From a virus, in IMG/VR virus record IMGVR_UViG_3300042397_000767, positions 1 to 25,737 of that record: a stretch of DNA of 25,737 nucleotides; one strand, given 5' to 3'. A program made the position numbers and the translations under genes. Shown here one piece after another: positions 9,327 through 19,814 of the stretch; the stretch's first letter is position 1; each line of letters opens with the position of its first letter. The notes beneath the pieces were generated by a model. That model was not told the DNA's origin, searched no databases, and saw nothing but the letters and a program-made list of their open reading frames with translations.

Positions 9327-9525
9327 TTGCGAGAAGGACTGCCGGTTTCGTATCGGCATGGGTGTGACTACGTGCGCATACTATCCTCCTATCTACGACA
9401 AGCACGGCAACAACACCAACCCTGACGGTAATACCACCACTGGGGTGATCCAGTGTAATGTTTGCAACCGCTGGTGGCAGTACAATACACAGTATGGTGA
9501 AACCAGATTCGCGGAAATGACATAA
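9310..9525 (+). CDS. Small cysteine-containing phage protein with a TTG start
   Basis: The protein has 71 residues, MNPNPNCEKDCRFRIGMG at the start. No ATG fits the N-terminus. The TTG at 9310 has GGGAG (9298-9302) seven bases upstream, so I take it as the start, overlapping the previous gene by 17 bases. The body has TTCAYYPPIYDKHGNNTNPD (about 20-39), an NTTTG turn and a CNVCNRWW knuckle near residues 49-56. Cysteines at 7, 11, 22, 49 and 52 suggest a small zinc-bound fold. Related uncharacterised proteins with NPNC, YYPP and C-x2-C elements occur in T4-like phages, as far as I recall. Confidence 0.72.
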   Translation: MNPNPNCEKDCRFRIGMGVTTCAYYPPIYDKHGNNTNPDGNTTTGVIQCNVCNRWWQYNTQYGETRFAEMT

Positions 9526-10076
9526 TGAACATCTTCTACCTTGACGAAGATCCAAAGCAGTGTGCTGAGTGGATGGTCGACAGGCATGTAGTCAAGATGA
9601 TTCTCGAAACAGCTCAACTACTATCTACTGCTCATCGTCTACTCGATGGGGAAGAGGTAGTAGTTGAACTTAGACACAAAGATACAGGAAAGGTGAAGAA
9701 GAAAAGTGTGTGGATCCTGCCCGACGACCGCAATGACGTTATTTACGCTTGCACACACCGCAACCACCCCAGTGCTATATGGTGTCGAGAATCGGTTGAG
9801 AACTACAACTGGTTGGTCGACCATCTCCACGCTCTGGGAAAAGAATATACCTACAGATATGGGAAGAAACATGCAACAATTGAGAAATGCTTTTATCAAC
9901 TCCAGTCCCCTCCTTTTGGGCTCCGCACTTGGGATTGGAGCATCCCTCCTTCTGCAATGGATGGGTCTTATATAATATCTGACGACCCAATCGTCAACTA
10001 CCGTAACTATTATAAGTACGGTAAGGCGAACCTCCATTCTTGGAAAAAGAGATCAGCTCCTGAGTGGATACTCTAA
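9525..10076 (+). CDS. Conserved T4-like phage protein (MNIFYLD family), unknown function
   Basis: The protein has 183 residues. The N-terminus MNIFYLDEDPKQCAEWMVDR, followed by HVVKMILETAQLLSTAHRLL, and the C-terminal KYGKANLHSWKKRSAPEWIL are hallmarks of a protein I remember as widespread in T4-like phages and in a few bacteria. It usually has DKHVVKMxxE and PxWxR-type motifs and is annotated as hypothetical. The invariant-looking D19-H21 and K24/E28 pair, the HPSAIWCR segment (about 81-88) and the conserved tryptophans suggest an enzyme acting on nucleic acid or nucleotides, but the activity is unknown. The start overlaps the previous stop (TAATG). A terminator begins in the stop codon and closes the early transcript. 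Confidence 0.8.
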   Translation: MNIFYLDEDPKQCAEWMVDRHVVKMILETAQLLSTAHRLLDGEEVVVELRHKDTGKVKKKSVWILPDDRNDVIYACTHRNHPSAIWCRESVENYNWLVDHLHALGKEYTYRYGKKHATIEKCFYQLQSPPFGLRTWDWSIPPSAMDGSYIISDDPIVNYRNYYKYGKANLHSWKKRSAPEWIL

Positions 10077-10103: not shown

Positions 10104-10111
10104 GATAAATA
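10104..10111 (+). promoter_or_regulatory. Candidate late promoter (GATAAATA)
   Basis: One base differs from TATAAATA. It lies between a terminator and a gene, and the predicted start near 10117 favours the ATG at 10134 over the one at 10113. Confidence 0.5.
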
Positions 10112-10133
10112 GATGAAACAGGGAATCAGACAA

Positions 10134-11087
10134 ATGTACGTACAGCTTAAACATGGCGATCTTACCAAGAGAGGCGGCGACCGTCTTTCGAAGTTTGTGG
10201 ATATGGCTGGCGAAGGCAGCACATTTCTCACATCCAAGGGCCCTATCGTCCTTGACCTAGCAAAATCACCATACAAAGGTGAGAAGCTACATAAAGGCAA
10301 TCTACTCAGAATCATGAACGTATCGGGGTTCTCACATACGTTCAACGCCAAGAAGCCAGGTGGCGGATCTGTACAAGTCAAGTATCCTACCGACTTCCTC
10401 AAGACTCCAGAGTTTGGTGGTAAGGGTGCTGGATCAGGGACAGTCGCAGAAGATAGAGCGCTGACCGAATTCCGTAGCGAGCTGGCAAAGGCAATGGAGG
10501 CCGCAGGACTCCCTTACGTCGAGATTAAGATTAATGGTCGCGTTGTTAGGGCGGTCGATGCCGGCCAGCCAAAGGGAACGCCGAAGGCTGATTTCTTTTT
10601 GACGAACGAGAAGGGGGAGCAAGTAGCATGGCTATCCCATAAGGATGGCTCATCCGCTAAGGATTTCCAACAGTGGGGCGGTATCACTGAGCTCAGTAAA
10701 AAGTATCCCAATCATCCTGAAATCGAATCCTTTGTTGAAGCTGTCAGACAGGATTCTGGCGGAGCAATGGATGGTAAGAAATCATATGCCAGAGACATCA
10801 AGGATCCAAAGTTAATTCGTGCTGCGGTGTACGGTATAGACTATGGAGGCGCACCTGGATTACAGAATGTCGACATTCTCCTCCAAGGACGAATTAAACT
10901 GACCAAGTCAGGAAAACATTTCGTGTTCTCATCAAGCCACACAATGGTGAACGGAGAGATACCTCAGAATGGTTATGGGGCGAGGTTTTTCACTCGTAAG
11001 GGTGACAGAGATAATTTCGGTATCAAGAATTCTCGCTTCATGGTAGCTCCGAAAGAACTTCGTAGAGCATCTACAGTTGAAATTTAG
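10134..11087 (+). CDS. Putative PD-(D/E)XK-like nuclease or nuclease-related phage protein
   Basis: The protein has 317 residues starting MYVQLKHGDLTKRGG. The start was chosen for AGGGA upstream and for the promoter position; an ATG at 10113 would add seven residues. The middle has PKADFFLTNEKGEQVAWLSH followed by KDGSSAKDFQQWGG. An acidic residue after PKA, a strand, then S-H-K is compatible with the PD-(D/E)XK nuclease core, with SHK as the second half-site. That would make it a restriction-type or recombination nuclease. The C-terminal part (LQNVDILLQGRI, then FVFSSSHTMVNGE) adds strands. The assignment is by motif only; a virion or DNA-repair role is possible. The next promoter starts three bases after its stop. 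Confidence 0.6.
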   Translation: MYVQLKHGDLTKRGGDRLSKFVDMAGEGSTFLTSKGPIVLDLAKSPYKGEKLHKGNLLRIMNVSGFSHTFNAKKPGGGSVQVKYPTDFLKTPEFGGKGAGSGTVAEDRALTEFRSELAKAMEAAGLPYVEIKINGRVVRAVDAGQPKGTPKADFFLTNEKGEQVAWLSHKDGSSAKDFQQWGGITELSKKYPNHPEIESFVEAVRQDSGGAMDGKKSYARDIKDPKLIRAAVYGIDYGGAPGLQNVDILLQGRIKLTKSGKHFVFSSSHTMVNGEIPQNGYGARFFTRKGDRDNFGIKNSRFMVAPKELRRASTVEI

Positions 11088-11151: not shown

Positions 11152-12375
11152 ATGAGCTTTAAGCGCTATCTAGAAGAACAGAAGAACACTCACATGGAGC
11201 ATGCCGAGGACCTCGTCCTCAATGCGGGGGTTCAGGGTGCTCGTATGGCTATCAATTACTTCCAGGGGGTCCGCGACATGCTCGCAGGACACACTAAGCG
11301 TCCTATGAATCTCACTGTGAAGTGGGACGGAGCTCCTGCTGTGTTTGCTGGTGTGGATCCATCTGACGGAAAGTTCTTTGTCGCTAAGAAGGGTATCTTC
11401 AACAAGAACCCTAAGGTATACAAGACTCCTGCGGAGATCGATGCTGACACTTCTGGTGACCTTGCAACAAAGCTCAAGATGGCTCTCAATCACTTCAAGG
11501 ACCTTGGTATCAAGGGCGTTGTGCAGGGCGACCTGTTGTATACACATGACACTATCGACCATACAGAGATTGATGGTGAGGCATACATCACGTTCCAGCC
11601 TAACACTATCGTGTATGCAGTGCCCGCTAACTCAAAGCTAGCCAAGCAGATCCTGCGTTCGAAGATTGGGGTCGTATGGCATACCATGTACACAGGGGAC
11701 TCGTTCGAGACGATGAAGGCATCGTTCGGACAAGCGATTTCTACGAAGCTGAACAACTCTGCAGCCGTCTGGCACACTGATGCTACGTTCAAGGACGTAT
11801 CAGGCGCAGCAACGTTCACAGACGCTGAGACAAAGGCTCTGACGGGCGTTCTATCGAAGGCTGGATCTCTCTTCAATACAATTCCAGCTTCGACCCTGAA
11901 CGACATCTCAGACAATGATGAGTTCCTGATGCGTGTGAAGACCTATAACAACTCGAAGGTTCGTGCTGGCGAGAAGATCACAAACACCTCTGCTCACGTT
12001 ACTGGTCTGATGAACTTCATTCACAATTATTATCAGAAAGAAGCTGACAAGAAGAAGACCGAGGCAGGCAAGAAGGTTCAGCTGGATAAGCAGAAAGAGA
12101 TGCTTCGCTACTTTACTAACCACAGTAAGTCGGACATCGTCAAGGTGTTCGATCTAATGAATCTTATGGTCGACTGTAAGGACATGGTTATTCGTAAGCT
12201 AAATATGGTACAGTCGCTGAAGACTTTCCTGCGCACAACAGATGGATTCCGTACAACCTCTCCCGAGGGATATGTTGCAATTGATCGCATCGGCAACGCA
12301 GTGAAGCTGGTTGATAGACTCGAATTCAGTAAGGCGAATTTCTCGCCTGATATTATTAAGGGATGGCAAAAATGA
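11152..12375 (+). CDS. DUF6267-type protein with ligase-like KxDG motif
   Basis: The protein has 407 residues and belongs, as far as I recall, to the phage family DUF6267. TVKWDGAPAVF (55-65) holds K57-x-D59-G60, the nucleotide-binding motif of DNA/RNA ligases and capping enzymes. GVVQGDLLY (122-130) resembles their motif III strand, and GEAYITF and NTIVYAVP follow as further strands. This suggests a nucleotidyltransferase fold, perhaps an RNA ligase. The Lys-rich C-terminal half (residues 290-407) is helical. The N-terminus MSFKRYLEEQ resembles T4 capsid-targeting tags, with cleavage expected after E9. AGGAAG precedes the ATG. It overlaps the FkbM gene by four bases. The enzymatic activity is inferred. 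Confidence 0.8.
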   Translation: MSFKRYLEEQKNTHMEHAEDLVLNAGVQGARMAINYFQGVRDMLAGHTKRPMNLTVKWDGAPAVFAGVDPSDGKFFVAKKGIFNKNPKVYKTPAEIDADTSGDLATKLKMALNHFKDLGIKGVVQGDLLYTHDTIDHTEIDGEAYITFQPNTIVYAVPANSKLAKQILRSKIGVVWHTMYTGDSFETMKASFGQAISTKLNNSAAVWHTDATFKDVSGAATFTDAETKALTGVLSKAGSLFNTIPASTLNDISDNDEFLMRVKTYNNSKVRAGEKITNTSAHVTGLMNFIHNYYQKEADKKKTEAGKKVQLDKQKEMLRYFTNHSKSDIVKVFDLMNLMVDCKDMVIRKLNMVQSLKTFLRTTDGFRTTSPEGYVAIDRIGNAVKLVDRLEFSKANFSPDIIKGWQK

Positions 12376-13004
12376 TATTTGGTAATCTGTGTCGTGTAAG
12401 AGAAGAAGAAGTAGCTGGGATTAAAAATTGGCTATGGATCGCTAGCGATGATGGTGCCTGGGATGGTCCTAAGCACGACTGGGAGACCAGTCACTTAGTT
12501 GGTATCAAGGACCTCGTGACAGACTGGTCTATCTGCGTTCAGGCGGGTGGTAATCAGGGAATGTATCCTAGACTGCTCATAGAGCATTTCCAGCATGTCT
12601 ATACGTTCGAACCCGATCCATTGAACTTCCACTGCTTGGTTAATAACTGCCAGTCAGACAACATCTATAAGATGCAGGCTGCACTAGGAGAGACGACTGG
12701 TCTGGCTCGTGTGAACCGTGCTTCAATGAACAATACAGGCTGCCACACCGTTTCTACGGACGGCGCATGCTATGTTCCTATGGTAACAATCGACTCACTC
12801 AAGTTACCTTCATGTGGCCTATTCCAGCTTGATCTAGAAGGCTATGAGCTCAATGCACTAAAGGGTGCACTAGAAACAATTGCTCGTTGTAAGCCTGTGA
12901 TCCAATGTGAGCGTGGTAACAACGAGATTCTCGACCTCCTAAGACCTTTCGGATATGAAGTGGTTGCAACGTCTAAAGCAGACACATTCTATAAGGTAGT
13001 CTAA
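12372..13004 (+). CDS. FkbM-family SAM-dependent methyltransferase
   Basis: The protein has 210 residues. ICVQAGGNQGMYPRLL (about 55-70) is the glycine-rich SAM loop, VYTFEPDPLNFHCL is the acidic end of strand 2, and FQLDLEGYELNALKG near residues 152-166 is the FkbM-typical motif (D-x-EG-E). The C-terminus PVIQCERGNN also fits the family. FkbM enzymes O-methylate sugars or other small acceptors. In phages they may modify glycans on the virion or DNA. The ATG at 12372 overlaps the previous stop and has AAGGG nine bases upstream; an ATG at 12363 lacks such a site. The substrate is unknown. Confidence 0.88.
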   Translation: MIFGNLCRVREEEVAGIKNWLWIASDDGAWDGPKHDWETSHLVGIKDLVTDWSICVQAGGNQGMYPRLLIEHFQHVYTFEPDPLNFHCLVNNCQSDNIYKMQAALGETTGLARVNRASMNNTGCHTVSTDGACYVPMVTIDSLKLPSCGLFQLDLEGYELNALKGALETIARCKPVIQCERGNNEILDLLRPFGYEVVATSKADTFYKVV

Positions 13005-14430: not shown

Positions 14431-16848
14431 ATGGAAGTTAAGAAGAACGACACCAATACTGTCAAATCAAAGCCTGTTAAACTGAAGGCAAAAGGCCGCT
14501 CCCTCACTGGTCAGCCTTTGGATGATATCGATCTCAATCCTCAGCTTGATACTACCGATAAACAACAGGTGCAAGAACAATCTCGTGGAGGCGTGGTCCT
14601 GACCTTTGGTCGCATGAACCCCCCTACAGTTGGTCATGAAAAGCTGGTGAAAAAAGTTGTAGCAGTCGCCTCACAGGCGAAGGCAACACCAATGGTATTC
14701 CTATCCCATTCCCAAGATAAGAAAAAGAATCCTCTCGAGTATGAGGATAAGATTCGCTTTGCGAAGGCTGCATTCGGTAACGTTGTCCAGTCCTCTCCTG
14801 CAAAGACTCTAATAGATATTCTCAAAACATTGCAGCAAAAGTTTGAAGAGCTGACCCTCGTTGTCGGCTCTGACCGCGTTAGTGAATTCCAAACTCTTCT
14901 CAATAAGTACAATGGTAAAGACTTTACCTTCGCCAAGATCAATGTCGTCTCTGCAGGCGAAAGAGATCCTGACGCAGAAGGTGTAGAAGGTATGTCTGCC
15001 TCTAAGATGAGAGCAGCAGTACAGTCAGGGGATGAGCAGAAGTTCATATCTGGTCTTCCACAGAGACTCAAGTCGCATGGTAAAGACGTCTTCAAGATGG
15101 TCTCTGCTGGTATGCAGCTTCATGAAGAGTTAGAAGCAGAGAACCTTCTCTCAGAAGTTCTTTCGCTCGATCAGCGCCGTAAACGCGCTCTTATCATGAA
15201 GCGCTATTCAGGTAAGATCGAAAGAGCAAGAGAGCTGGCTCGCAAGAGAATGGCCACTACAGAGAAGCTCAAGAAGAGATCCTTCATCCAAGCAAGGGAC
15301 ATCGTACGCCGCAGAGTAGCAGGTCGTCGTGGCGCAGAGTATGCGACACTATCTCCTTCTGAAAAGATCCAAATTGATACAGCAGTAGAGAAGCGTAAAG
15401 GCGCAATCAAGAGGATTGCAAGCCGCCTTATGCCACAAGTTAAAGCTGCAGAGTATGCAAGACTGAAGTCATTTACTCATGGCGCTCAGATGCAGCATCT
15501 GCATTCGGGTCCTGCTGTCCAGCATGAACAGTTCAATGAGGCGTTCGAAGAGTTTGCAAAGACTATCGAGATCGTTACAGTAGACGATATCCTCAAGGAA
15601 ATGACTGATCTCGTTCTTGACAAGATCATCACCGAGAAGCAGATCCAAGCACTCGAAAAGAGAGCTCAGAGATCCGGTATCCAATATGATCTACTCGAGC
15701 AAGTTTATATCCGTGGTCTGCTCGACTCAATGGGCGATCAGAACATTGCTTTCAACAGAGTCAATGCATTCTGCTGTGGCGGTAAGACTGCTATGAACGA
15801 AGACTTCGATCTATACGAACAGATCGAAAGAGAAGACCTCAACACAGTATTCGAAGCTGGTCTATGGGATAACATCCATGCCAAGCGTAAGCGTATCAAA
15901 GCTGGATCCGGTGAGCGTATGCGCAAGCCAGGATCTGAAGGCGCACCTACAAAGCAGAATTTCAGAGATGCATCTGAGTCAATCGAAGAAGGTTATGACG
16001 TCAACTCGAAGCACTACAAGGCTCTGACTGATCTCGATCTTAATACTAAGAACCGTGACATGACCACTCAGAATGATGGTTACGGTCCTTTGAATCCTGG
16101 CGACACAAAGGGATCCAAGTCTTTCTGGGAAGAAAAGGCTAAAATGTGGAAGACCACAACTGAAGCTGCAATGGAAGCTCGCTGTGGCAACTGTGCTGCA
16201 TTCAACCAGGCGCCTGCTATTATGAAAAAGATGGCAGAAGGTCTTGGACCAGCTGGCGAGAAGATTCAGGACCTCGCGAACCTTGGTTTCTGTGAGCTGT
16301 TCGAGTTCAAGTGTGCTGGTGATAGAACCTGCAACAAGTGGTTGGTCAACGGTCCTATCACGGAGAAGTCTGCAGGAACAGAAGCTCGTAAGAAGATCGA
16401 AAAGGTTGACCGTAAGCCACCTCACACAGAGCACGGTAAGCAGGCAGAGATCCAGACAAAGATCATCGACGAAGAAGGCAACTCACAGCCTAATCCTAGG
16501 AAGAGATTGCAGGGCACAGATTCACTCGTAAAGGCATACAAGAAGGACACTCCTGGTGAAGGTCTTAACGAATCGTTCAATATTGCCTATGGAGCTGGTA
16601 TTGGTATCACTCTAACAGCAGCTGATATGGGCATCAAAGCCCAAGGTGGTTTTGCGCTACACCCTTCTGTAATCCAGCAAATGGAAGATGAGGAATTAGA
16701 AGAGGCTGCAAAGACAGCTGACAAGGCTCCTGTAGTTATTCCTGCGCACAACAACGCAAGTGGTAAAGCTGTCCCAGCGAAGACTGTAATGCGTAGAAAG
16801 TCTAAAACAATCGTCAATAGTGGCGACAACCCATCGGACGGTCAATAA
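14431..16848 (+). CDS. Nucleotidyltransferase fused to phage core / structural modules
   Basis: The protein has 805 residues. Residues 54-200 form a cytidylyltransferase-like (NMNAT-type) Rossmann domain: GRMNPPTVGH (60-69) is the (H/T)xGH site, VVGSDRVSEF (144-153) follows, and GMSASKMR (187-194) is the ISxxxR-like motif. Next come a Lys/Arg-rich helical module (about 243-350), an acidic helical part (370-460) and the common phage module GLWDNIHAKRKRIKAG (about 476-491). A cysteine module (RCGNCAAFN to CAGDRTCNKWLVNGP, about 582-646) and a Gly/Ala-rich tail complete it. L/I-x-E sites lie between modules. It sits behind a late promoter. I infer a virion or prohead-core protein whose enzyme domain may act on nucleotides after infection; the substrate is unknown. 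Confidence 0.8.
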   Translation: MEVKKNDTNTVKSKPVKLKAKGRSLTGQPLDDIDLNPQLDTTDKQQVQEQSRGGVVLTFGRMNPPTVGHEKLVKKVVAVASQAKATPMVFLSHSQDKKKNPLEYEDKIRFAKAAFGNVVQSSPAKTLIDILKTLQQKFEELTLVVGSDRVSEFQTLLNKYNGKDFTFAKINVVSAGERDPDAEGVEGMSASKMRAAVQSGDEQKFISGLPQRLKSHGKDVFKMVSAGMQLHEELEAENLLSEVLSLDQRRKRALIMKRYSGKIERARELARKRMATTEKLKKRSFIQARDIVRRRVAGRRGAEYATLSPSEKIQIDTAVEKRKGAIKRIASRLMPQVKAAEYARLKSFTHGAQMQHLHSGPAVQHEQFNEAFEEFAKTIEIVTVDDILKEMTDLVLDKIITEKQIQALEKRAQRSGIQYDLLEQVYIRGLLDSMGDQNIAFNRVNAFCCGGKTAMNEDFDLYEQIEREDLNTVFEAGLWDNIHAKRKRIKAGSGERMRKPGSEGAPTKQNFRDASESIEEGYDVNSKHYKALTDLDLNTKNRDMTTQNDGYGPLNPGDTKGSKSFWEEKAKMWKTTTEAAMEARCGNCAAFNQAPAIMKKMAEGLGPAGEKIQDLANLGFCELFEFKCAGDRTCNKWLVNGPITEKSAGTEARKKIEKVDRKPPHTEHGKQAEIQTKIIDEEGNSQPNPRKRLQGTDSLVKAYKKDTPGEGLNESFNIAYGAGIGITLTAADMGIKAQGGFALHPSVIQQMEDEELEEAAKTADKAPVVIPAHNNASGKAVPAKTVMRRKSKTIVNSGDNPSDGQ

Positions 16849-17117
16849 TGCTTACATTCACTCAGTTCATAGCCGAAGCTGAATACCAAGGCAAGAAGGT
16901 TCCTCTTAACAAGCCAATGGCTGGTGATGTTAAGAAGTCGAAGGTCTATGTGGATCTCGATGGGGATGGTAAAGCCAAGAAGGTAAACTTCGGCGACAAG
17001 AACATGACGATCAAGAAAGACAATCCTGCTCGTCGCAAATCATTTAGAGCACGTCATAACTGCGACAATCCTGGTCCAAAGGATAAAGCACGTTACTGGT
17101 CGTGTAAGGCTTGGTAA
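16848..17117 (+). CDS. Small probable internal capsid protein with targeting tag
   Basis: The protein has 89 residues. The N-terminus MLTFTQFIAEAEYQGKKVPL is very like the T4 internal-protein tag (MKTYQEFIAEA), which directs proteins into the prohead and is cut by the gp21 protease after L/I-x-E. The predicted cut is after E10. The rest carries KVYVDLDGDGKAKKVNFGD (32-50), then KNMTIKKDNPARRKSFRARH (51-70) and NCDNPGPKDKARYWSCKAW (71-89), a module widespread in T4-like phages (I recall DUF6321). It is strongly basic, with C72 and C86 possibly forming a metal site. It starts on the previous stop (TAATG), coupled to the large core-like gene. Confidence 0.8.
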   Translation: MLTFTQFIAEAEYQGKKVPLNKPMAGDVKKSKVYVDLDGDGKAKKVNFGDKNMTIKKDNPARRKSFRARHNCDNPGPKDKARYWSCKAW

Positions 17118-17126
17118 GGATATATC

Positions 17127-17573
17127 ATGGACGAACAAGTACAAGCATTAATCGAAGAGCTAAAGGTAGCCTTTGCTAGCACCTATGCGTTCTATCTGAA
17201 GGCACACTACTATCACTGGAATGTTGAAGGTCCAGACTTTCCTCAGTATCATAAGTTCTTCGGTAAGATATACAAAGAGGTAGGCGATTCAATCGACAAG
17301 ATGGCTGAACATATCAGAGCACTAGATGCTTATGCTCCTGGATCCTTCAATCGTCTCGAGGAGCTATCTGCTATTAAAGGCGATGATAAAATTATTCCTG
17401 CCCGCAATATGATTCAAAACCTACTAGAAGACAATGACAAGCTAACTCCAATGCTTATTAGCGTTATGAAGAAGGCAGAGGCTGTTAACAGATATGGCAC
17501 CGCTAACTTCATTCAGGATAGAATCGAAGCGCATAGAATTCACTCATGGATGCTGAGGTCAACACTCAAGTGA
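17127..17573 (+). CDS. Dps-like ferritin
   Basis: The protein has 148 residues in the Dps/ferritin-like fold. The motif HYYHWNVEGPDFPQYHKFFG (27-46) is followed by IDKMAEHIRAL (56-66). Dps proteins form dodecameric shells that oxidise iron at H-W-N, H, D and D-x-x-A-E ligands between subunits. Here H30, H42, D57 and E61 are present, but the usual Asp four residues after the second His is glycine (G46), so ferroxidation may be weak. AAGGA precedes the ATG. It lies in a late structural operon, and its end overlaps the next gene. It may protect or compact DNA, or sit in the virion; its role in the phage is not known. Confidence 0.85.
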   Translation: MDEQVQALIEELKVAFASTYAFYLKAHYYHWNVEGPDFPQYHKFFGKIYKEVGDSIDKMAEHIRALDAYAPGSFNRLEELSAIKGDDKIIPARNMIQNLLEDNDKLTPMLISVMKKAEAVNRYGTANFIQDRIEAHRIHSWMLRSTLK

Positions 17574-18179: not shown

Positions 18180-19814
18180 ATGGCAAAAATGTTCGATAAA
18201 GTTTCACAGGATTTCATGAATGCCATTAAAGGCGTTCTTGAAGCGAAGAAAGTTAACAAGCACGGTCACGACCATGTGGGCAAAGAAGATGACGACATCG
18301 ACAACGATGGCGACACTGATGCATCAGACAAGTATCTGCACAATCGTCGTAAGGCAATCGGCAAGTCTATGATGAAGAAGGAATCGAAGGACGATGTTCC
18401 TTTCAAAGGTCCTTACGGAAAGTCTGGCGAGCGCAAGGATGAATATGGCAACAAGGTAAAGAATGTTGCAAAGCATCTTGCCAAGAAGGCTATGAAAGCT
18501 AATGAAGAAGTTGAAGAGCTAGAAGAGCTTTCGAACGACACACTTCGCAGCTACAGAATGAAGGCAAAATCTATTGCGGATCATGGTGGCAAACAACGCA
18601 CCCAAGGTCGCGAACTAGCTGGCCGTAAGTCATATGGTGGCAGAATGGCTGGGGTCGAAAAGGCCAAGGTCATGGCTAAAGAAGAAGCTGATCAGATCGA
18701 TGAGCTCTCGACAGGTACGCTACAAAGCTATGCTGATAAAGCATCTGATGCTGGTGGCCACCGTAAGCTCTCTACTAAAAAGGTTGACAATCGCTACAAG
18801 GGTGTAGCTACCGCTGCTAAAAAGCTCGCTAAAGAAGATGTCGAGCAGGTCGATGAGCTATCGAAGCCTACAATGGGTCGTTATATCAACAAAGCTAAAG
18901 ACTCCATTGATATGGCTTCGTACAGACAAGGAAACAAAGAAGCTACCGGTAGCACGTCGAAGCCACTTGAAAAGAAGCTAACGAAGCGTCATAAAGGTAT
19001 TGAAACTGCTGTTAGCAAGCTGACCAAGGAAGAGATCGAAATGATCGAAGCCAAGATGGCTGGCGTTGCTCCAGGGTCGATGGAAGGCGACAAGCACATG
19101 TGTGCTACAAAGGTCTTCCACAAAGAGTGGAACGAAGGTACGCCCATCAAGACTATGCACGCTGATCCAGATGCAGAAGGTCTGATCGAGTGGTATGATG
19201 TTATGTTCGATCATGGCATCGAGCGCGTAATGACAGAAGACATGGAGATCCTCCAGGCCGAGTCACACATGCACTCGAAGAAGAAGATGAAAGAAGAAAC
19301 AGCTGTAGATAAATTTATTGCAGGTGCTGATAAAGCAAAATCTGACAATAAAAAAATGCAAAAAATGCTAGGACTAAAGCGCGGTAAGTCTGTTACAAAG
19401 GGCAACGTGACTACAACTTCGTATAAGAAAGAAGAAGCTGAAGAGCTAGATGAAGCTCGTGGCCGTCCTAAGAAGACTGGTCAGATGGATTACACTGTGC
19501 ATCCCAAGACTAAAGAAAAGCTGATGCACAACAATCCTGAGCACATGAAAAGGATTGAGAGACTTCAGAAGAATGGTATCCTCGAGAAGCCAAAGACCGA
19601 AGCCAATCAGCACATCATGAATCAACTTCAGAAAGCCAAGACCTCGATGCAGGGGGGATCAACTATCCAGTTTACACATGGTTCTGCAAAACACGTTTCG
19701 GGTACACATGCTGCGAAGCTTCTCGACAAGTATGCTGGTATGAAGCCAGATGAGAAAGAAGCCTTTCAGAAGAAGATTGGTCACTCACACGAACAGCTGA
19801 TGAAGCACGTCTAA
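18180..19814 (+). CDS. Repeat-rich modular core-like / structural protein
   Basis: The protein has 544 residues. After a helix, residues 39-50 form a Ca-binding loop (DIDNDGDTDASD), as in dockerin/EF-hand proteins. Residues 116-290 are three repeats beginning ELS-xxT-xxxY-xxKA and ending in KE(E/D)-rich segments. A central module (HMCATKVFHKEWNEGT to MFDHGIERVMTEDM, about 306-355) and a C-terminal module (ANQHIMNQLQKAK to the end) also occur in other T4-like structural proteins. At each repeat start stands (L/I/V)-(E/D)-E before LS, matching the prohead-protease cleavage rule. It is very rich in Lys and Glu with no hydrophobic core. I infer a prohead core / scaffold-type protein processed on maturation. 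The promoter is at 18142 and GAGGG precedes the ATG. Confidence 0.7.
   Translation: MAKMFDKVSQDFMNAIKGVLEAKKVNKHGHDHVGKEDDDIDNDGDTDASDKYLHNRRKAIGKSMMKKESKDDVPFKGPYGKSGERKDEYGNKVKNVAKHLAKKAMKANEEVEELEELSNDTLRSYRMKAKSIADHGGKQRTQGRELAGRKSYGGRMAGVEKAKVMAKEEADQIDELSTGTLQSYADKASDAGGHRKLSTKKVDNRYKGVATAAKKLAKEDVEQVDELSKPTMGRYINKAKDSIDMASYRQGNKEATGSTSKPLEKKLTKRHKGIETAVSKLTKEEIEMIEAKMAGVAPGSMEGDKHMCATKVFHKEWNEGTPIKTMHADPDAEGLIEWYDVMFDHGIERVMTEDMEILQAESHMHSKKKMKEETAVDKFIAGADKAKSDNKKMQKMLGLKRGKSVTKGNVTTTSYKKEEAEELDEARGRPKKTGQMDYTVHPKTKEKLMHNNPEHMKRIERLQKNGILEKPKTEANQHIMNQLQKAKTSMQGGSTIQFTHGSAKHVSGTHAAKLLDKYAGMKPDEKEAFQKKIGHSHEQLMKHV
18525..19049 (+). repeat. Three tandem protein repeats of about 51-65 residues
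   Basis: The coding repeats start at residues 116, 175 and 226 of the host gene. Each begins ELS then T[LM]xxYxxKA, has a middle R-rich or K-rich part, and ends with A-xxK/M-L/A-KE[ED] before the next (Q)(I/V)DE. They are diverged at DNA level, so they are old duplications rather than a recent expansion. Confidence 0.75.

Follow-up and report, generated by a model that had tools for sequence, protein, structure and literature searches.

A DUF6267 protein with a predicted ligase fold and a capsid-targeting-like tag is a candidate packaged enzyme of T4-like phages

Does the virus record IMGVR_UViG_3300042397_000767 encode a ligase that travels to the host inside the phage head? The question is raised by the DUF6267 protein encoded at positions 11152 to 12375 of this record, whose 25,737 bases form the window analysed here. 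An earlier note on the DNA had read in this protein a ligase-type K-W-D-G, a GDLL strand like ligase motif III and an N-terminus resembling a T4 capsid-targeting tag. That observation is right, and the sequence is richer than stated: our analysis adds motifs IV and V, a neighbour with a putative nuclease fold, the same tag on other proteins and a part of the family that is untagged. Taken together, the model and the motifs make a predicted ligase-superfamily fold for DUF6267 very probable, and packaging appears probable for the tagged lineage. The combined interpretation, in which DUF6267 is an Rnl-like ligase packaged in the head as part of a cassette of tagged cargo proteins, is the one that we moderately favour.

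11152..12375, + strand: open reading frame (ORF) of the DUF6267 protein, 407 amino acids, ATG start; predicted covalent nucleotidyltransferase of the ligase superfamily.

Pfam and PHROG searches of nine window proteins assigned this product to PF19782 (DUF6267; E 8.8e-111, 371 bits against a curated cut-off of 27) and to phrog_455 (E 4.1e-99). Relatives were found by tblastn in 456 records of a phage collection, mostly cyanophages and with identity below 60% throughout. A relative is also encoded at 37 places in the genome_contigs collection, presumably phage contigs within bacterial bins, whereas none of 14 control genomes yielded DUF6267. A literature search found no paper naming DUF6267. 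For the comparisons, 80 related loci (L001-L080) were picked by six patterns. Of these, EEQKNTHM overlaps the tag and another restricts the set to close relatives, so that the counts of DUF6267 tags in this set are biased; the genome_contigs scan used motifs internal to the enzyme. From the 80 loci, 51 were read and 44 aligned (alignment A1), with L054, which has an internal stop, and others excluded. Rows and loci are mutually related, many being near copies, and the p values and enrichment counts given below are guides only.

Conserved ligase motifs

11320..11331, + strand: motif I, K57-W-D-G60 (conservation in 103 relatives).
11386..11394, + strand: K79-K80-G81, after the strand 75-79 (alignment and model).
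11524..11532, + strand: motif III, Q125-G126-D127 (conservation).
11821..12210, + strand: predicted helical region, residues 224-353, between motifs III and IV (model).
12265..12276, + strand: motif IV, E372-G-Y-V375 (conservation).
12304..12318, + strand: motif V, K385-L-V-D-R389 (conservation).

The sole K-x-D-G of the protein lies at residue 57, at the end of the predicted strand 53-57; 0.2 such motifs are expected from composition, so K-x-D-G alone is not significant. Its conservation among the 103 relatives bears out the motif that had been noticed, since all 101 ungapped rows have K57, D59 and G60. The proposal of GDLL (residues 126-129) as motif III is likewise upheld, D127 being invariant in 102 of 102 ungapped rows. 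Near the C-terminus, E372-G-[YF]-V and K385-L-V-D-R look like ligase motifs IV and V: E372, G373 and V375 are invariant in 99 of 99 ungapped rows, as is K385 (99/99), which belongs to a family motif K385-x-V-x-R. Also invariant wherever ungapped (98-102 rows each) are K80 (102/102), H177, K343 and R389. The residues are computed; the names motif I, III, IV and V are those that we take to apply to them. The complete invariance of the catalytic lysine, the acids and the motif V lysine across 103 rows argues against a degenerate, non-catalytic ligase-fold protein serving as a structural component of the head, an explanation that we regard as very improbable, even if fold reuse, which we infer to be frequent in phage head genes, would speak for it.

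In the T4 Rnl2 family alignment the corresponding residues are K35-I-H-G, G98-E99, E204-G-Y-V and K225-C-K227, and DUF6267 thus shares with Rnl2 the E-G-Y-V of motif IV. Motifs I and III are 70 residues apart in DUF6267 and 64 in Rnl2, whereas motifs III and IV are separated by 245 residues against 105. These roughly 140 extra residues, which together with a single motif V lysine and the packaging tag distinguish DUF6267 from Rnl-type ligases, approximate the predicted helical region 224-353, which is far shorter in the cyanophage forms of about 300 amino acids.

Predicted fold of DUF6267

An AlphaFold2 model generated from 44 sequences had a predicted local distance difference test score (pLDDT) of 84.4 and a predicted template-modelling score (pTM) of 0.78, with a predicted disordered stretch at residues 1-14 (pLDDT <50). 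The model was compared with 999 PDB chains by VIA-align; many of the rows listed are copies of a few proteins, and among the matches listed 50 of 50 are ligases by title, with RNA ligases leading. The best match listed, Naegleria RNA ligase (183 aligned residues, root-mean-square deviation 3.5-3.7), has a Z of 8.7, a value barely above the 7-8 given by the tool itself for models that lack clear relatives. It is followed by RNA editing ligase 1 (8.1), a fungal tRNA ligase (7.7), T4 Rnl2 (7.5), T4 Rnl1 (7.4) and human DNA ligase I (6.7), all in a range that may reflect a common arrangement and in which Z-scores cannot decide between RNA and DNA. With T4 Rnl1 and Rnl2, Naegleria RNA ligase and RNA editing ligase 1, DUF6267 shares both the fold (Z 7.3-8.7) and the order of motifs I, III, IV and V, and it is on the uniform list of ligases and this motif order, rather than on Z alone, that we base the predicted ligase fold. 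A search of BFVD returned first 13 matches (E <=0.001) that resemble members of the DUF6267 family, one of them an S-PM2 chain of 591 amino acids, and named RNA ligases from E 0.016 on. The comparison with T4 Rnl1, Rnl2 and DNA ligases proposed in the earlier note therefore gave a ligase fold with VIA-align, more weakly with Foldseek, and not an unrelated one.

Besides the height of the Z-scores, several results weigh against a ligase. Foldseek found no PDB match to the model at E <=0.001; ligases recur among its first rows, all weaker than this. The hhalign comparison of 27 DUF6267 rows with 13 relatives of T4 Rnl2, both shallow alignments, gave no link between the profiles. Sequence searches of solved structures found no ligase, the best single-sequence matches being weak ones to PET hydrolases (E 0.43), and the profile search of the same structures yielded one match (E 0.32), which is not a ligase. 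In motif V a single lysine stands in place of the K-x-K of Rnl2. A hydrolase identity taken from Pfam and NCBIfam matches was set aside, these being below cut-off.

The single motif V lysine would also suit an enzyme of ligase fold without end-joining activity, delivered as a capping-type or protein-modifying nucleotidyltransferase for host RNA or proteins, perhaps with a cytidylyltransferase/NMNAT-like partner. Such a partnership finds support in a single 591-amino-acid S-PM2 chain of BFVD, named cytidyltransferase-like, which fuses DUF6267 with a cytidylyltransferase-like domain, and in phrog_455, which covers both parts; in an older S-PM2 record (L280 3507-5286), DUF6267 is split across two ORFs, the second of which continues into the cytidylyltransferase. 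The packaged Alt protein of T4, moreover, modifies proteins, according to the accessible part of PMC9026906. We nevertheless consider this explanation unlikely: the gene that adjoins DUF6267 has a predicted nuclease fold, and no capping enzyme is found among the 50 VIA-align matches listed, which in itself excludes nothing.

An N-terminal capsid-targeting-like tag

11152..11178, + strand: capsid-targeting-like tag, residues 1-9, MSFKRYLEE, with a predicted prohead-protease cut after E9 (L-x-E); read from the sequence, E9 invariant in the 44 rows of A1.

The N-terminus MSFKRYLEEQ places F3, Y6, L7 and E9 at the spacing (aromatic, +3 aromatic, +4 L or I, +6 E) of positions 4, 7, 8 and 10 of the T4 internal protein IPIII, in agreement with the T4-type tag that had been suspected. 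The T4 genes ipII and ipIII (NC_000866) both start with MKTYQEFIAEA. In IPIII, residues 4 and 7 matter for targeting and 8 and 10 for processing, with gp21 cutting after L/I-x-E, as far as the accessible part of PMC9026906 reports. DUF6267 is thus like IPI, IPII and IPIII in its N-terminal pattern and its L/I-x-E cut site, and in both cases the tag is borne by otherwise unrelated proteins. The T4 proteins are small and inhibit type IV restriction enzymes (PMC12373910, accessible part), whereas DUF6267 has an enzyme fold of 407 amino acids and its packaging is predicted.

A strict pattern (M, at most 5 residues, [FY]..[FY][LI].E) was used for the scans of T4, of DLP6 and cyanophages and of long contigs, for the enrichment in the 80 loci and for the reciprocity counts; a looser pattern was used for the 93-row tree, the counts of upstream-neighbour families and the scan for co-occurring kinase and HAD motifs. 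In 52 kb of T4 the strict pattern detects ipII and ipIII only (2/97 first ATGs, 0/243 internal ATGs); it misses ipI, a known internal protein. Around DUF6267, with DUF6267 itself excluded, 65 of 1548 first-ATG ORFs of the 80 loci carry it against 18 of 4908 internal ATGs (odds ratio 11.9, Fisher p 1.2e-25, the rows being related). The tagged neighbours include, over Pfam cut-offs, a P-loop kinase/zeta-toxin-like protein (L054 5248-5925; PF13671, PF06414) and an HD-domain protein (L031 12162-12719; PF13328), and, identified by motif, HAD-like and cytidylyltransferase-like proteins. In a contig of 194,645 bases, the stretch at 23-39 kb around DUF6267 holds five of the seven tagged first-ATG ORFs; another, of 133,055 bases, has as its sole hits DUF6267 and the gene two places upstream. 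Melnitz, a Methylophilales phage, has the tag on DUF6267 and on the preceding gene, DLP6 (168 kb) has the strict tag on DUF6267 alone, and the DUF6267 protein of HTVC008M begins with MYNDLLVEDK, a looser match. A gp21-type protease (PF03420) was detected in 5 of 8 related long contigs. Literature pairing a capsid targeting sequence with a cyanophage was found only in a review of T4 head research.

These observations also bear on the possibility that DUF6267 is a ligase synthesised within the infected cell for RNA repair, as T4 Rnl1/Pnkp mend cut tRNA, and that its tag is incidental. RNA ligases are indeed the best fold matches, DLP6 has many tRNA genes, and the RNA ligase family PF09414 is above cut-off in just 1 of 13 records (a second record is below cut-off; five cyanophage records lie outside this search). 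The tag, however, retains the four functional positions, sits in the predicted disordered stretch and is common to unrelated neighbours far above chance. A full end-healing kit in the island was rejected, kinase and HAD-phosphatase motifs never sharing a locus (0/81 and 0/37). In-cell repair with an incidental tag therefore seems an improbable alternative to packaging.

The tag as a removable extension

Several cyanophage DUF6267 proteins start at MAKNTHLEHLED or similar without extra N-terminal residues; judging from these sequences, the tag is a removable add-on extension. Among the 80 loci, the DUF6267 tag is strict in 50, looser in 21 and absent in 4, and 5 have no anchor; in genome_contigs it is strict in 15 of 33 readable proteins, 4 of the 37 loci lacking an anchor. 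On a tree of 93 of the 103 rows, with the tag left out of the alignment, we counted 6 changes between tag and no tag, against 28.8 with shuffled labels.

The distribution of tags on DUF6267 and on the cytidylyltransferase looks reciprocal at the sequence level. Among 40 S-SM1-like loci of the short form, none of the 35 readable DUF6267 proteins has the tag, whereas all 39 cytidylyltransferases found have it. In L001-L080 and the window, 53 of 79 readable DUF6267 proteins are strictly tagged, against 1 of 33 cytidylyltransferases found. The reciprocity is imperfect: the tag is on both proteins in some genome_contigs loci and on neither in others, and it is absent from both in 3 of the 6 isolate cyanophages where both could be read. 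We tentatively suggest that the T4 tag could be a general, swappable address that loads an island of enzymes (nuclease-fold, ligase-fold, cytidylyltransferase/NMNAT-like, HAD-like, P-loop and HD proteins) into heads across T4-like phages, with one lineage bearing it on the ligase and another on the cytidylyltransferase, and that nuclease, ligase and nucleotidyltransferase might act jointly on nucleic acid just as infection begins. Provided that the tag functions as it does in T4, injected proteins of many uncultured phages could be predicted from a pattern of about nine residues, and the stage that precedes phage transcription would open to sequence search.

Virion proteomes

Cytidylyltransferases with tags read from their sequences have been reported in virions, in the accessible parts of the respective papers: S-SCSM1_91 (PMC9602691), S-SZBM1_140 (2 peptides; PMC9146016 Table 1), S-CREM2 gp154 (3 peptides; PMC10665884 Table 3) and GC190 of S-SM1 (T4-GC190; PMC3037559), whose virion comprises 41 proteins and in which the DUF6267 cluster is named T4-GC71. 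Carry-over in purification is treated as a possibility for S-CREM2 (PMC10665884) and S-SCSM1 (PMC9602691). The DUF6267 genes of the phages with proteomes (S-SZBM1_141, SSCSM1_257 and the S-CREM2 gene at 58914-59762) are all untagged, and their products are not among the virion proteins given for S-SZBM1, S-SCSM1 and S-CREM2 in the accessible parts of these reports. The tag scan covered 50 of the 175 kb of S-CREM2 and all of S-SCSM1 except 50-60 kb. A tagged cytidylyltransferase in the virion and an untagged DUF6267 outside the lists fit a tag that means packaging, which is no proof for tagged DUF6267. Two results speak against packaging: we found no virion proteome for any phage whose DUF6267 is tagged, and S-SZBM1_191 and S-SZBM1_192, both tagged, are missing from the 30-protein virion table of PMC9146016, as far as it is accessible.

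With these points in mind, we propose packaging. DUF6267 would be a covalent nucleotidyltransferase of the RNA/DNA-ligase superfamily, its fold nearest to RNA ligases, made late and beside a nuclease-fold protein. In the lineage of the window, the tag would carry it into the prohead core, the prohead protease would trim it after E9, and the trimmed enzyme would leave the head with the DNA and enter the host. In the host it would most likely form a lysyl-nucleotide at K57 and, as soon as infection starts, join ends in RNA or in nicked DNA; this last step, the joining of nucleic acid at phage entry, has in our judgement about an even chance of being correct. With a pre-packaged ligase, the phage could mend cut nucleic acid ahead of any gene expression. 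The evasion of host defences envisaged in the earlier note would be a speculative step beyond this.

The missing ligase of cyanophages

Homologues of T4 g30 are reported to be missing from cyanomyoviruses, distant homologues that escaped identification being conceivable (PMC2984593, accessible part). For phages said to lack the T4 DNA ligase, the ligase fold predicted for DUF6267, a family previously without an assigned function, offers a testable candidate. DUF6267 might accordingly be primarily the phage's own replication or repair ligase, replacing T4 gp30, with packaging secondary or absent. In line with this, DUF6267 is present in 9 of 9 cyanophages, where PF01068 is found in 0 of 9; PF01653 is found in 0 of all 18 records; the cyanophage DUF6267 sequences read are untagged; and in S-CAM9, S-CAM1 and S-SM1 the gene follows replication genes. 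However, PF01068 accompanies DUF6267 in 5 of 9 non-cyanophage records, so DUF6267 is no simple replacement there. T4 gp30 and other ATP-dependent DNA ligases share the nucleotidyltransferase fold with DUF6267 (Z 6.7 for human DNA ligase I), but have after motif V an OB domain, and no OB-fold domain with motif VI is present in the model, in which strand 383-386 is followed only by helix 389-397 and the end of the chain. RNA ligases also outscore DNA ligases in VIA-align, and S-SCSM1 and S-CREM2 annotate a "DNA ligase" of about 166 amino acids, a doubtful annotation. We regard a resident replication ligase as a possible but not the favoured explanation of DUF6267.

The contrast between PF01068 in 0 of 9 cyanophages and 5 of 9 non-cyanophages, which comprises few records, eight of them contigs and possibly fragments, suggests that DUF6267 may serve as a resident ligase where it is untagged and as an additional, delivered ligase where it is tagged. 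The tagged enzyme is thus extra in DLP6, where a separate DNA ligase is present. The short ORFs annotated as DNA ligase, L094 43530-44027 (SSCSM1_180) and L256 44929-45432 (SCREM2_gp190), have no K-x-D-G by eye and are possibly misnamed.

Gene neighbourhood

10105..10111, + strand: ATAAATA, T4-type late-promoter-like core (7 window sites against 2.9 expected).
10113..11087, + strand: gene directly upstream of DUF6267, 324 amino acids, predicted MspI-like restriction-endonuclease fold (model, alignment); untagged here, tagged in some relatives.
14431..16848, + strand: cytidylyltransferase/NMNAT-like protein, 805 amino acids, GRMNPPTVGH at residue 60 (Pfam, PHROG, motif); untagged here.
16848..17117, + strand: protein of 89 amino acids with a second strict tag, MLTFTQFIAEA, nearly T4's own (sequence).

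The upstream protein was modelled from 26 sequences (pLDDT 88). In VIA-align MspI ranks first (168 aligned residues, root-mean-square deviation 4.8) with Z 7.5, a value below 8 that can mean a common arrangement; the next row has 3.8, and other restriction and junction-cutting nucleases lie below it. Its D160 and S175-x-K177 are invariant, comparable to the D...(E/Q/S)-x-K of the PD-(D/E)XK core. Foldseek found no match at E <=0.001, and the profile search gave no firm link in sequence. Among 73 loci with room for it, the slot directly before DUF6267 is occupied by differing families, often tagged: the five commonest have tags in 8/10, 5/6, 3/6, 6/6 and 3/5 members, and several of the families show D...E-x-K or D...S-x-K by eye. 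In L032 a tagged protein two genes upstream shares phrog_1462 with SSCSM1_90, which is annotated as a virion protein. SSCSM1_90 itself was rejected as kin of the MspI-like protein, hhalign giving no link.

The 7 occurrences in the window of ATAAATA, which we take to be the T4-type late-promoter consensus, were reached by 2 of 100 shuffles; one lies directly before the nuclease-fold gene and one before the cytidylyltransferase gene, and late expression would fit packaging. Sigma-70 promoter-like sites near the DUF6267 gene gave no signal (7 against 6.9 expected). In the segment 10105-10134 a single base separates the end of the ATAAATA core from the ATG at 10113, and the nuclease-fold protein may therefore start at a later ATG (residue 8).

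The nuclease/ligase pair is flanked by a pyrimidine-dimer-glycosylase-like gene (9525-10076; PF03013, E 6.8e-05) and an FkbM methyltransferase gene (12363-13004; PF05050, E 2.8e-12). An untagged ferritin/Dps-like protein (17127-17573; PF00210, E 7.3e-25) lies beside the cargo genes, and the protein encoded at 18180-19814, with repeated ELS..T...Y-type segments and E-rich linkers, could be a substrate of the prohead protease.
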